From Streptomyces sp. HUAS 15-9 (lineage in GTDB: Bacteria > Actinomycetota > Actinomycetes > Streptomycetales > Streptomycetaceae): DNA of 64,000 nucleotides. The stretch covers positions 6,696,001 through 6,760,000 of the forward strand of contig NZ_CP106798.1 of NCBI RefSeq assembly GCF_025642155.1, written 5' to 3'. A model generated the notes under the pieces. It was not told the origin of the DNA. It did not search any database and saw nothing but the letters and a program-made list of their open reading frames with translations. Numbering within the stretch: position 1 is the stretch's first letter; each line of letters begins with the position of its first letter. This document shows positions 900 through 3,802 of the stretch, piece by piece. A program made the position numbers and the translations under genes.

Positions 900-1121
900 G
901 TGAGCGGTACGCCGTTCGAGAACCCCGACGCCGGCTATCTGGCGCTGGTCAACGACGAGGGCCAGTACTCGGTGTGGCCGGCCGCCGCCGAGGTGCCCGC
1001 CGGCTGGCGCGTCGCCCTCACCGAGTCACCCCGGCAGGCCGTGCTCGACCACATCGACCGCGCCTGGACCGACCCGCGCCCCGCCTCACTGCGGGCCGTC
1101 GACGGGCAGCCGGGCGAGTGA
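900..1121 (+). CDS. MbtH-like protein
   Basis: A 73-residue protein with the MbtH signature: NDEGQYSVWP, then PAGW, a Leu-containing spacer and WTDPRP near the C-terminus. MbtH proteins bind the N-terminal subdomain of NRPS adenylation domains and are often needed for their solubility or activity. The likely client here is the free-standing A-PCP protein at 19210-21042, or NRPS genes beyond the right edge. The start is GTG at 900, chosen because GAAGGAG (886-892) sits 7 bases upstream; an in-frame ATG at 876 has no comparable site. The 3' end overlaps the 3' end of the convergent peptidase gene by 36 bp. The call is secure from the motif; the partner is inferred. Confidence 0.92.
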   Translation: MSGTPFENPDAGYLALVNDEGQYSVWPAAAEVPAGWRVALTESPRQAVLDHIDRAWTDPRPASLRAVDGQPGE

Positions 1122-1988
1122 CGCCCTCGCGTACACCGCCTGACTGCCCGGGACGATGAACAGGGACTCGCGCAGCGCGGAGGCGGACTCGGTCGTCAAC
1201 TCCTCGACCGCGTCCGCCTCTTCGTACATCAGCGCCCGCTCCAGCTCGAAGTAGTACAGATTGAACGCGTCGACCTGTCGCTGGTAGAGCCACCACCGCC
1301 GGCACTCCTCGGCACTGCCGTGCTCCCTCAGATACACGGCCGTTAGCTGCTCCTCCAGCCGGTGCGCGAGGCGCTCCGAGGCGATCCGGGCACGGATGCC
1401 GGTGCCCGGTCGGGACCGCTCGTACAGACAGTGGCCCAGCTCGTGGGCGACACCGGCCAGCGCCCCGACCGTCGGGCCGTCGGCGCCCAGGATCACGGCG
1501 GCGTGCGGGGGCCCGACGGTGCGGAAGGGCGTGCCGTGCTCCGCCAGGGAGGACTCGGCGAGGATGCGCAGCACACGGTCGCGCCAGGGACGCAGCTGAG
1601 GCAGTTCCGGCAGGATCTCGGCGGACGGGGCGTGGGTGGGGTGGCTCAGGATCAGGTCGTCGGCGGGCAGCGGCAGGGGCAGCTCGGCCAGGTGCACGAG
1701 CATGGAGCGGCGCAGCGGCAGTACGGCCGCGTAGCGCGGGGCCGCGAGGACCTGTCGTACCTGATGGTGCGTGACGTCGAACAAGCGCCGGACCCAGGCC
1801 AGTTGCCGCAGTGCGGCCAGCCGGGAGCGGCGCTCGTGGAGCAGCGTCTCGATCAGTTCACCGGTGCCGAGCACGGCCTCGCGCTGCAGGCGCCGGCGCT
1901 CGTCGCGATAGGCGGCGACGGCCCGGGGGTCGCCGGTGAGGTCGTGCTGCGGGGCGGGCCGGTGCGTCCCGCCCCGCGGGGGTGCCAC
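1086..1988 (-). CDS. putative zinc metallopeptidase (M3-like, HExxH)
   Basis: A 300-residue protein with HELGH at residues 182-186, then CLYE, and a further Glu-rich helix (SERLAHRLEEQL) about 20-30 residues on that could supply the third zinc ligand. A later stretch, VDAFNLYYFE, is typical of the helical core of M3-type oligopeptidases. At 300 residues it is about half the size of classical M3 enzymes. There is no signal peptide, so it should be cytoplasmic. The GTG start at 1988 lies 2 bases after the stop of the Asn-rich peptide gene, so the two are almost certainly co-translated and the peptide is an obvious candidate substrate. Its 3' end overlaps the MbtH-like gene. Zinc-peptidase character is well supported; the family assignment and substrate are inferences. 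Confidence 0.75.
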   Translation of the reverse strand: MAPPRGGTHRPAPQHDLTGDPRAVAAYRDERRRLQREAVLGTGELIETLLHERRSRLAALRQLAWVRRLFDVTHHQVRQVLAAPRYAAVLPLRRSMLVHLAELPLPLPADDLILSHPTHAPSAEILPELPQLRPWRDRVLRILAESSLAEHGTPFRTVGPPHAAVILGADGPTVGALAGVAHELGHCLYERSRPGTGIRARIASERLAHRLEEQLTAVYLREHGSAEECRRWWLYQRQVDAFNLYYFELERALMYEEADAVEELTTESASALRESLFIVPGSQAVYARASLARLPVDGPQ

Positions 1989-1990
1989 GG

Positions 1991-2245
1991 TCAGTTGTTG
2001 ATGTTGTTGTTCGAGTTGTCGGCGCTGTTGCTGTTGCTGTTGGCGTTGCCGTCGTTGTTGTTCTCGTTGGCGACGATCGACAGGTCCTCCGCGAGGGCGT
2101 TGATGTCCGTGGCGGTCACGCTCTGCAGACGCGGGGCGTCGGAGTCGTCGGCCATCGCAGAGTTGTTGATGTTGCTGTTGTTGTCGGAGGAGTTGGCGCT
2201 GTTGCTGTTGTTCGACATGGAGTTGTTCGCCGGGGAGTTGTTCAC
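1991..2245 (-). CDS. Asn/Ser-rich small protein, candidate precursor or substrate peptide
   Basis: An 84-residue protein not recognised from any named family. It has 28 Asn and 16 Ser, one Arg, no Lys, no Cys and no aromatic residue. Two Asn/Ser-rich arms flank a central ordinary segment (APRLQSVTATDINALAEDLS, about residues 37-56) that could be a helix or recognition sequence. GTG at 2245 is taken as start because AGGAG (2254-2258 on the complement) precedes it by 8 bases; an ATG at 2314 would give a 107-residue version. This frame is preferred because Asn is AAC, with C at the third position as in the rest of the window; the other minus-strand frame would need CAA-rich poly-Gln and the opposite strand GTT/TTG-rich poly-hydrophobic. 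It lies directly upstream of the zinc-peptidase gene, so a precursor-protease or protein-substrate relation is plausible but unproven. Confidence 0.65.
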   Translation of the reverse strand: MNNSPANNSMSNNSNSANSSDNNSNINNSAMADDSDAPRLQSVTATDINALAEDLSIVANENNNDGNANSNSNSADNSNNNINN

Positions 2246-2518
2246 GATGAGTTCTCCTGAGGACGAGCGGTTGGCCGGGCCGGAGCCGGTCTGCGTGTCG
2301 AGCAGCGTGTCCATATAGCGCCATGGCGCTAAAGCGTCGGATGGGCTGTGGCAAGCGCATGGCAAGGTCGTGTCGCGGGTCAGACGGGCATGGCAGGAAG
2401 CCGTCATGCTCCTCGTGGCGGGACCGCGAACGACGCGGAACCTCCGCTTCCCGCATTGTGGTCCCGTGACGCATCCGGCAGGGTCGGTCGCAATCCGTAA
2501 GCCCAGCAGGAGGCCGCC
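2246..2518. promoter_or_regulatory. divergent promoter region with 16-bp perfect palindrome
   Basis: This 273-base region separates the Asn-rich peptide gene (leftward) from the prenyl-synthase-like gene (rightward) and must hold both promoters. A perfect palindrome TAGCGCCATGGCGCTA lies at 2316-2331, a good shape for a dimeric repressor or activator site. GGGACC (2420-2425) and GGTCCC (2460-2465) form a wider inverted repeat. The AGGAGG at 2508-2513 is the ribosome binding site of the rightward gene. No confident -35/-10 pair was identified. Confidence 0.5.
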
Positions 2519-3460
2519 ATGATCACGGATCAGGACCACAGGACGCCCGCTCCCGCGCACCGGCGCGAGGAGATGCTGGACCGGGTCGAGGCCAGACTGC
2601 GCGCCCTGCTGAACGACGAGTACCGCCGCCACTGCGGGCACGCCCGCGCCGCCGTCCTCGTCGAGTCGCTGGCCGAACTGGTCGCGGCGGGTGGTGAACG
2701 GGTGCGTCCCGTGGTGCTGTTCACCGGCTACCTCGCGGCGGGCGGCGCCCCGGACGACCCGCGCGCCATCGACACGGCCGCCGCGCTCGAACTGCTGGAC
2801 ACCGCCATGCTGCTGCGCTCCGACGTGCACGACAACGCGGCCGTACGGCGCGGCATGCCGGCCCTGCACGTAGCGCGCGCGGCCGAGCACGAGCGGGGCG
2901 GCTGGGGCGGCGACGCGCGACGCTACGGCGCGTACACCGCGACGCTCGCCGGTGACCTCGCGCTCGCCTGCGCCGACCGGCTGGCCGCGGGGCTGACCGG
3001 CAGCGCGCGAGCTCACTGGGACGAACTGCGCGCCGACCGCTGTGTGGGCATGTACGCGCGCGAGGCCATGACCGCGGCCTACCTCGACGACCCGTGGCCC
3101 GGCCGGTGCGTCTCCGGCTGCGACAGCGGCTGCCGGGCGGGCTGGTACGCGCTGCGCGCCCCGCTGCTGATCGGCGCCGCGCTGGCGGGCCGGGACGACC
3201 TGACCCCCGCCTACGAGGCGTACTCCGGCGCCCTGCATGCCGCCTGGCGCCTGCGCGGCTTCCTCGACGGAGGCCCCGAGTACGCCTGGGACGCCGAGCT
3301 ACTGCGTGAGGCGCTGCTCGACGGTGACGAACGGGAGGTGGCCGAGCGCATGATCCATGAACTGGTGAGCCGGGCGGGGCGGACGGCGGGTGAGGCGGCG
3401 GTGTCGGGGGCGTGGCGCGGGGAGTTGGCGTCGTTCGGGCTGCGGGTGGCTTCGGTCTGA
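2519..3460 (+). CDS. polyprenyl-synthase-like protein with degenerate Asp-rich motifs
   Basis: A 313-residue protein resembling trans-polyprenyl diphosphate synthases in layout: GGERVRP around residue 60 (family GGKRxRP) and LLDTAMLLRSDVHDN..RRGMPALH around residues 93-114, where the first Asp-rich motif and RRG-P-H segment normally sit. The canonical DDxxD is replaced by SDVHD (residues 101-105), and the second motif region reads LRGFLDGG instead of a clear DDxxD. Catalysis by the normal Mg-diphosphate mechanism is therefore doubtful. A Cys cluster (CVSGCDSGC) follows position ~195. ATG 2519 is preceded by AGGAGG at 5 bases. The gene is divergent from the Asn-rich peptide/peptidase pair, suggesting one functional locus. 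The fold is reasonably supported; activity is unknown. The last 180 bp are duplicated downstream. Confidence 0.7.
   Translation: MITDQDHRTPAPAHRREEMLDRVEARLRALLNDEYRRHCGHARAAVLVESLAELVAAGGERVRPVVLFTGYLAAGGAPDDPRAIDTAAALELLDTAMLLRSDVHDNAAVRRGMPALHVARAAEHERGGWGGDARRYGAYTATLAGDLALACADRLAAGLTGSARAHWDELRADRCVGMYAREAMTAAYLDDPWPGRCVSGCDSGCRAGWYALRAPLLIGAALAGRDDLTPAYEAYSGALHAAWRLRGFLDGGPEYAWDAELLREALLDGDEREVAERMIHELVSRAGRTAGEAAVSGAWRGELASFGLRVASV
3281..3460 (+). repeat. first copy of 180-bp tandem partial gene duplication
   Basis: Bases 3281-3460, the end of the prenyl-synthase-like gene including its stop, recur at 3533-3712 with an offset of exactly 252 bp. I count three mismatches (two silent, one changing Arg to Gly), so identity is about 98 percent. 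This is the functional copy. Confidence 0.95.
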
Positions 3461-3802
3461 GGTGTGTGGGGCGGAGTGTCCGCGGCCGGTGTGGCCCTCG
3501 CCTCCTGCACGTTTTCGGGGCGGGGCGCCGCGTATGCCTGGGATGCCGAGCTACTGCGTGAGGCGCTGCTCGACGGTGACGAACGGGAGGTGGCCGAGGG
3601 CATGATCCATGAACTGGTGAGCCGGGCGGGGCGGACGGCGGGTGAGGCGGCGGTGTCGGGGGCGTGGCGCGGGGAGTTGGCGTCGTTCGGGCTGCGGGTG
3701 GCTTCGGTCTGAGGTGGTCCGAGTCAATCCGAGGCACGTGGGGTGGGATGTCCGCCGTCCGGTGTGAGGCTCGCCTGTCGTACGCCCTGCGAGGCTCGCC
3801 TC
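3461..3802. other. gene-free spacer holding a 3' gene fragment and short repeats
   Basis: This 342-base gap between two 3' gene ends has no complete gene. It contains the second 180-bp copy of the upstream gene's tail (3533-3712). The bases after each copy are also related (for example gtgtccgcggccggtgtgg at 3476-3494 and the matching stretch around 3748-3767), so the duplicated unit was longer and has diverged outside the coding part. Two 23-bp direct repeats beginning GAGGCTCGCCT lie at 3766-3788 and 3791-3813, the second running into the stop of the ligase-like gene. No clear terminator hairpin is visible. Confidence 0.7.
3533..3712 (+). pseudogene. duplicated 3' fragment of the prenyl-synthase-like gene
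   Basis: This fragment encodes the last ~59 residues of the upstream protein in the same relative frame, up to a TGA at 3710-3712. It carries one amino acid change (Arg to Gly in VAExMIHEL). An open frame from an ATG at 3464 would read through it as an 82-residue protein, but the 5' third has no family resemblance and no convincing ribosome binding site. It is best read as a recent duplication remnant. Confidence 0.85.

Follow-up and report, generated by a model that had tools for sequence, protein, structure and literature searches.

Some of the HExxH proteins encoded in RiPP clusters are alphaKG-dependent hydroxylases of Gln runs, and PosC, which belongs to these oxygenases, also hydroxylates Asn (PMC12636437). 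Among the borosins, SonM needs residues R67, Y71, and Y58 (PMC8429565); the other sources cited for this work are PMC11395268 and PMC10885120. The DNA compared here with such systems is a stretch of 64,000 nucleotides from Streptomyces sp. HUAS 15-9 (hereafter, the window), which carries a trio of genes encoding an Asn/Ser-rich peptide, a HELGH metallopeptidase, and, divergent from both, a protein similar to prenyl synthases. No description of this trio and no match to "PRLQ" combined with "precursor peptide" were found in the literature searched (titles and the beginnings of abstracts, chiefly outside subscription journals), which is not proof of novelty. The gene structure of the locus, its conservation pattern, the family relations of its proteins, the loss and gain of motifs, and the cluster context are established below by computation.

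The gene of the precursor-like peptide (positions 1991..2245, minus strand) has homologues in other genomes and begins with GTG, which is separated by 8 bases from the end of an AGGAG ribosome-binding site. Translation of this frame reproduced the composition on which the original prediction was built, namely, 28 Asn and 16 Ser in 84 residues, with no Cys, no Lys, and no aromatic residues (Phe, Trp, and Tyr are absent, as is His). The argument from AAC usage was also sound: AAC is used for each of the 28 Asn, and the peptide frame has a GC3 of 0.976, compared with 0.37 and 0.41 for the two alternative frames of the same strand (coding sequence without the GTG codon). The peptidase gene starts 2 bases past the peptide stop, exactly as had been stated, and the same 2-base gap is found in S. 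olivochromogenes A53. The peptide is thus placed as RiPP precursors are, a short ribosomal product beside a processing enzyme, with a ribosome-binding site, a coding pattern, and a conserved adjacency to a predicted peptidase; it is real and very probably translated. When the genome itself was searched at the DNA level for paralogues, nothing but short weak matches turned up beyond the locus. The region between the peptide and synthase genes (2246..2518), a candidate divergent promoter region, is strongly conserved relative to S. olivochromogenes. On the left flank of the cassette lie the gene of an MbtH-like protein (900..1121, plus strand), convergent and overlapping with the peptidase gene, and that of a LuxR-type regulator.

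The peptide has no Pfam domain, its scans against Pfam and NCBIfam were empty, and its sequence resolves into one short core between two low-complexity arms. The core, APRLQSVTATDINALAEDLS (residues 37–56; 2078..2137, minus strand), was compared in an alignment of 13 peptides, eight from genomes in which the peptide adjoins the peptidase and five others (P0002–P0006); P0001, 98% like the peptide of the window, was left out, and the window row is one N-arm Asn short (83 versus 84 aa). The 20-residue consensus was [A/T]PRLQS....D......D.., with PRLQS and the two Asp columns the same in all 13 peptides. Eleven of these have Asn/Ser-rich arms; the arms are Gly/Thr-rich in the peptide of genome G291 and Gly-rich in that of G568; the N-arm of P0006 is 6 residues long (its start is possibly miscalled), and so is the C-arm of four peptides from a second genus, g7. 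Between the window and S. olivochromogenes, the core codons carried no non-synonymous and three synonymous changes, and among four g7 genomes, no non-synonymous change in any of the six pairs, with one to three synonymous ones. Values of dN/dS for the whole peptide, which rest on few changes, ranged from 0.12 to 2.96 within g7 and reached 1.4 between the window and S. olivochromogenes. The original prediction had asked which part of the peptide homologues keep: the core is kept, and the Asn/Ser arms are not. The core looks like the functional element of the peptide, and the arms behave as disordered spacers of kept composition. The switch of the arms from Asn/Ser to Gly/Thr or Gly argues against Asn-specific modification or Asn-driven self-assembly as the shared function. 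With one conserved core between two arms and coupling to the peptidase in eight of eight genomes, the peptide resembles a precursor or substrate, as had been proposed.

The HELGH protein (300 aa; 1086..1988, minus strand) models as a compact M3-like gluzincin, the nearest folds to the model being the M3/M2/M32 peptidases. H182, E183, H186, and E205 are invariant in all 20 aligned sequences; the first three belong to the predicted zinc-binding motif HELGH (residues 182–186; 1431..1445, minus strand), and Glu205 (1374-1376, minus strand) is, from the alignment, the candidate third ligand, so that the HExxH motif and the downstream Glu of M3 peptidases both have counterparts. Family scans of the peptidase were empty (no Pfam match and no NCBIfam family at E ≤ 1), and a profile search of PDB sequences returned a single row, which at E = 0.33 is not credible. 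The family model of the alphaKG-HExxH oxygenases is TIGR04267/IPR026337.

The recurrence of the trio in other genomes, on which the original prediction depended, was found in two genera. In S. olivochromogenes A53 (L001), the LuxR, MbtH, peptidase, peptide, and synthase genes follow the order of the window; in g7, the trio is present in five genomes, in four of which a methylase gene is inserted between those of the peptide and the peptidase; and Streptomyces sp. NPDC086787 lists all three proteins. A related peptide adjoins the peptidase homologue in each of the eight genomes whose flanking DNA was read. The peptidase itself was rare: it was detected in 1 of 199 genomes of the genus and 6 of 394 genomes of the family (the window genome being counted in both), in 5 of 35 genomes of g7, in 1 of 120 relatives of G568, where nothing new appeared, and, by profile search, in 2 of 392 genomes of the genus (window genome counted), all these samples overlapping. 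Plasmid searches yielded no peptidase and, at 1e-40, no synthase. The synthase was present in 20 of the 394 family genomes (E ≤ 1e-60), among them all six that have the peptidase; the probability of such an overlap by chance is 8e-9 for independent genomes, which these are not. In the remaining 14 synthase-positive genomes, the peptidase was not found, and no PRLQS peptide was present in the 5.7–16 kb around the synthase. Consequently, the synthase has no fixed link to the peptide system and would rather be part of a PKS cluster.

The surroundings of the trio are those of such a cluster. The region is collinear with genome G267 from about −16.6 kb to 49 kb, and PKS similarity continues beyond; the gene calls behind this collinearity and behind the loci of the relatives are script-made and rough, with the strand sometimes wrong. 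By Pfam, the cluster encodes AMP-binding proteins, PPTases, a metallophosphoesterase, a BTAD/SARP regulator, and LuxR-type regulators, as well as an AfsA-domain protein, an A-T didomain, an amidase, and type I PKS modules. One of the AMP-binding proteins, named FAAL here, has a DIP2-like C-terminus, and an acyl-CoA-dehydrogenase-like (ACAD-like) protein gave a match below the cut-off only (both scanned in G267). In G568, the peptide and peptidase genes lie among homologues of the FAAL (64%), ACAD-like (63%), and SARP (55%) genes, with adjoining PKS modules, and the genome contains no such synthase at E ≤ 1e-20. MbtH accompanies the trio in the window, in S. olivochromogenes, and at four g7 loci, and was not found in the stretches read at G291, G568, and the 14 synthase-only loci. 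Homologues of the flanking regulators and enzymes of the cluster were present at 10 of these 14 loci (L046–L055) and few at the other four (L042–L045). This distribution makes the peptide and the peptidase look like a cassette that is accessory to this kind of type I PKS cluster. The notion of the trio as a locus independent of PKS genes was therefore not upheld: in the window and in g7 a syntenic PKS cluster surrounds it, and 14 of the 20 synthase-positive genomes have no detected peptidase.

The divergent gene (2519..3460, plus strand) encodes a protein of 313 aa that matches Pfam polyprenyl_synt (1.2e-12) and has the all-helical fold of prenyl synthases; a 193-nt duplicate of its 3′ end (3272-3464), 97% identical, lies at 3524..3716 on the plus strand. 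The degenerate first Asp-rich motif SDVHD, singled out earlier, was confirmed (residues 101–105; 2819..2833, plus strand), and in the window protein both Asp-rich motifs and the KT motif are all lost. None of the 65 homologues, that of the window included, has the second Asp-rich motif or the KT lysine, and 63 of them lack the full first motif (P0064 and P0094 keep DDVRD), whereas five of five outgroup proteins keep both Asp-rich motifs and KT. Just before the former KT motif, three aligned cysteines in the arrangement C-x3-C-x3-C (C197, C201, and C205; 3107..3133, plus strand) are shared by 65 of 65 homologues and by none of the five canonical relatives; the site is probably metal-binding. 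The polyprenyl-transferase cargo of family 2 encapsulins was considered and rejected, since the score for NCBIfam NF041169, 48.4 bits, is far below the cut-off of 450.

The gene inserted in the four g7 genomes encodes a TP-methylase of 253–255 aa (PF00590 matches of the two scanned proteins, 2.3e-12 and 2.9e-13), and G568 has a truncated copy in the same position (46.6% over 118 aa); no match at E ≤ 0.01 was found in the genomes of the window, G291, and L001. In the midpoint-rooted tree of the peptidase, G568 stands on the opposite side from the rest, so that a methylase present in the ancestor and lost repeatedly is the simpler explanation, although it could also have been gained independently. 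A profile of five methylases recovered OphMA and SonM from the PDB sequences at about 1e-17 and other TP-methylases at no better than 4e-4; the best NCBIfam match, YabN, was far below its cut-off. At the positions aligned with SonM Y58, R67, and Y71 (OphMA Y63, R72, and Y76), the four g7 methylases and one from Serratia have S or H, D, and F or Y, respectively. Since the key residues of SonM are thus not kept, alpha-N-methylation must not be assumed. A class-wide sample, which contained no known positive, gave 0 of 246 for the methylase, a result therefore of little weight, and a scan of viral contigs gave 91 pattern matches and no relative. The idea of a modified ribosomal peptide is accordingly plausible for the family, in which four relatives have the methylase; in the window genome, no such enzyme was found.

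The g7 methylase query also matched a gene on a plasmid of Serratia liquefaciens (30.2% identity, 95% covered, 1e-29), upstream of which a 77-aa peptide with three HPRLQAAAPMNLAKVIGGF units is encoded. The similarity of these units to six Streptomyces cores was reached by 3 of 20,000 shuffles, and by 130 of 20,000 when the PRLQ columns were removed. Downstream of the methylase lies the gene of a HEALH protein, P0102, a homologue of which follows the peptidase in G568 (24.6% over 236 aa, 4e-9). With this plasmid, the link between PRLQ peptides and methylases of this kind extends beyond Streptomyces and, over the 17 kb read, to a setting away from PKS genes. A plasmid search with the HEALH protein of G568 returned nothing, despite its match with P0102; with P0102 as the query, two Streptomyces plasmids with a HEAVH protein were found, and the 12.5 kb around each HEAVH gene contained no PRLQ peptide. 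E. coli genomes gave no match to the Serratia stretch. Distant TP-methylases encoded on plasmids of Bradyrhizobium and Haloarcula were set aside, the peptides adjoining them being of a non-PRLQ kind. In the stretches from Burkholderia and Sinorhizobium, the PRLQ scan detected no small peptide of this type.

In the reading preferred here, to which we give about an even chance, the peptide is a precursor that is recognized through its core and cleaved by the M3-like peptidase encoded beside it, and some members of the family may be methylated as well; the cleavage, the core recognition, the action of the methylase on the peptide, the role in the product, and the metal binding are what we infer. 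The peptide and peptidase would form the two-gene cassette of a RiPP-like family, here called PRLQ peptides, whose ribosomal precursor would be recognized by a partner protein through the invariant xPRLQSxxxxDxxxxxxDxx, a segment probably helical after a PRLQ turn, with the arms serving as unstructured spacers that keep composition and not sequence. The dedicated compact peptidase would cut at or beside the core, releasing or trimming it; in part of the family, a borosin-related TP-methylase, the gene of which is missing from the window genome, would act on the peptide first. The cassette would then probably give the PKS cluster a peptide-derived piece or a processed signal. The divergent protein would be a component of that cluster with a prenyl-synthase fold, in which the three-cysteine site may have replaced the diphosphate/Mg site.

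A different role for the peptide, possible but clearly less probable, would be to regulate or inhibit the peptidase, or to act as a tether that binds proteins: the core would dock in the enzyme, the disordered arms would keep the peptide soluble, and the substrate of the peptidase would be another component of the PKS pathway, such as a peptide or a protecting group on the polyketide. A strict core with replaceable arms is what a short binding motif would show, the window genome has no methylase, and the cluster encodes an A-T didomain and an amidase; however, the methylase in five relatives (one copy truncated) and the triplicated Serratia unit are more easily explained by a modified substrate than by an inhibitor. 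Another reading, an unlikely one, is decay: a former pathway for modified peptides would have left the cassette behind in the PKS cluster, and in the lineage of the window it would no longer serve any function. Such decay would agree with the absence of the methylase from three genomes and its truncation in G568, and with the fast evolution of the arms and a dN/dS for the entire peptide that is near or above 1 in the majority of pairs, but not with the dN/dS of 0.23 of the peptidase (window versus S. olivochromogenes), the unchanged core residues in the same comparison, and the HELGH motif kept in all seven sequences of the window's clade in the peptidase tree.

The precedent of PosC, which takes Asn too, would allow the HELGH protein to be an alphaKG-HExxH-type oxygenase hydroxylating Asn instead of a peptidase. 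This is improbable, given that arms without Asn runs occur (G291 and G568), that NCBIfam gave no match, that the nearest fold is that of M3/M2/M32 peptidases, and that Glu205 is invariant. Least probable of all is the option, offered earlier, of a structural protein rich in Asn that self-assembles and has a protease of its own for processing: the low-complexity arms of 11 of the 13 peptides have the composition for it, but G291 and G568 do without an Asn-rich arm, P0006 has almost no N-arm, and the g7 peptides almost no C-arm.

The following broader picture can be offered tentatively. PRLQ peptides would be a new RiPP-like class of Streptomycetaceae and Serratia plasmids, with a fixed, sometimes repeated PRLQ-helix unit in interchangeable disordered arms, a dedicated miniature M3-like peptidase in Streptomycetaceae, and, in part of the class, a borosin-descended methylase with a rebuilt active site; the Streptomyces cassette would feed a PKS, yielding a polyketide–ribosomal peptide hybrid, and its neighbour would be a prenyl synthase turned three-cysteine metalloprotein, with a metal site in place of the diphosphate/Mg site. 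The peptide family is defined by a searchable motif (PRLQS and two Asp) together with a partner peptidase that matches no Pfam model; domain-based genome mining would probably miss this family, which is linked here to an unusual PKS cluster. The complete exchange of arm composition around an unchanged 20-residue core is a natural test of the role of disordered arms, and the prenyl-synthase-fold protein, with its cysteines in 65 of 65 homologues, is a clear case of catalytic motifs replaced by a probable metal site.

Compared with the M3 oligopeptidases (oligoendopeptidase F and Pz peptidase), the window peptidase is about half as long (300 aa) and has no Pfam match; its His–Glu spacing is shorter than that of M3. 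From the actinobacterial GGPP/FPP synthases (3qqv and Rv2173), the window protein differs in the lost motifs, the three gained cysteines, and the deletion of the segment after the second motif. The alphaKG-HExxH RiPP oxygenases PflC and PosC likewise place a HExxH protein beside a RiPP-like precursor (PMC12636437), whereas the window protein matches no family and its nearest fold is different. The split borosins (SonM/SonA, type IV) are similar to the relatives of this locus in that a TP-methylase of similar size is accompanied by a small precursor encoded separately, and the methylase of these relatives is closest, among PDB sequences, to SonM and OphMA. The window genome differs from these systems in having no match (E ≤ 0.01) to the precursor-coupled methyltransferase of the OphMA/SonM family. 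The precursors differ as well: the SonA leader is a five-helix bundle (PMC8429565), whereas the PRLQ precursor consists of a PRLQ core and low-complexity arms.

The three-cysteine synthase, a prenyl-synthase-fold protein of 313 aa (2519–3460, forward strand), is probably the single most unusual protein in the locus. Comparison of the window synthase with 64 homologues revealed that the cysteines of a CX3-4CX3C motif (3107–3133) were invariant, and the diphosphate-binding motifs were gone from the same protein. The 3' end of its gene was involved in a tandem duplication (3272–3464 and 3524–3716; 193 nt, 97% identity, spacing 252 nt). The three-cysteine synthase was also present in four Streptomyces genomes (loci L042–L045) in which few parts of the PKS cluster accompanied it; in two of these loci, L042 and L045, it adjoined a homologue of the 4'-phosphopantetheinyl transferase of the PKS cluster.

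The divergent promoter region (2246–2518), located between the synthase and peptide genes, was highly conserved in comparison with S. olivochromogenes. Repeated GGCAAG words and the palindrome AGCGCCATGGCGCT, the latter only partly retained in S. olivochromogenes, were noted in this region by eye; these elements may be regulator sites.

In genome G568, two copies of the PRLQ cassette (peptide and predicted zinc peptidase genes) were found on contig C1 at 64770 and 9739677, close to either contig end, an arrangement that fits a linear chromosome with terminal inverted repeats.

An unfamiliar RiPP-like cluster was found on a Serratia liquefaciens conjugative plasmid (L070, 7714–10450), containing genes for a triple PRLQ-repeat peptide, a TP-methylase, a HEALH protein (P0102), a 2OG-Fe(II) oxygenase and an MFS transporter; S. 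marcescens and S. ureilytica plasmids contained partial matches to this locus. The HEALH protein encoded in L079 (10671–11654), assigned to no Pfam family, is a homologue of P0102, which also matched HEAVH proteins of two Streptomyces plasmids (L087 and L088); on both plasmids, three small annotated genes lie in front of the HEAVH gene.
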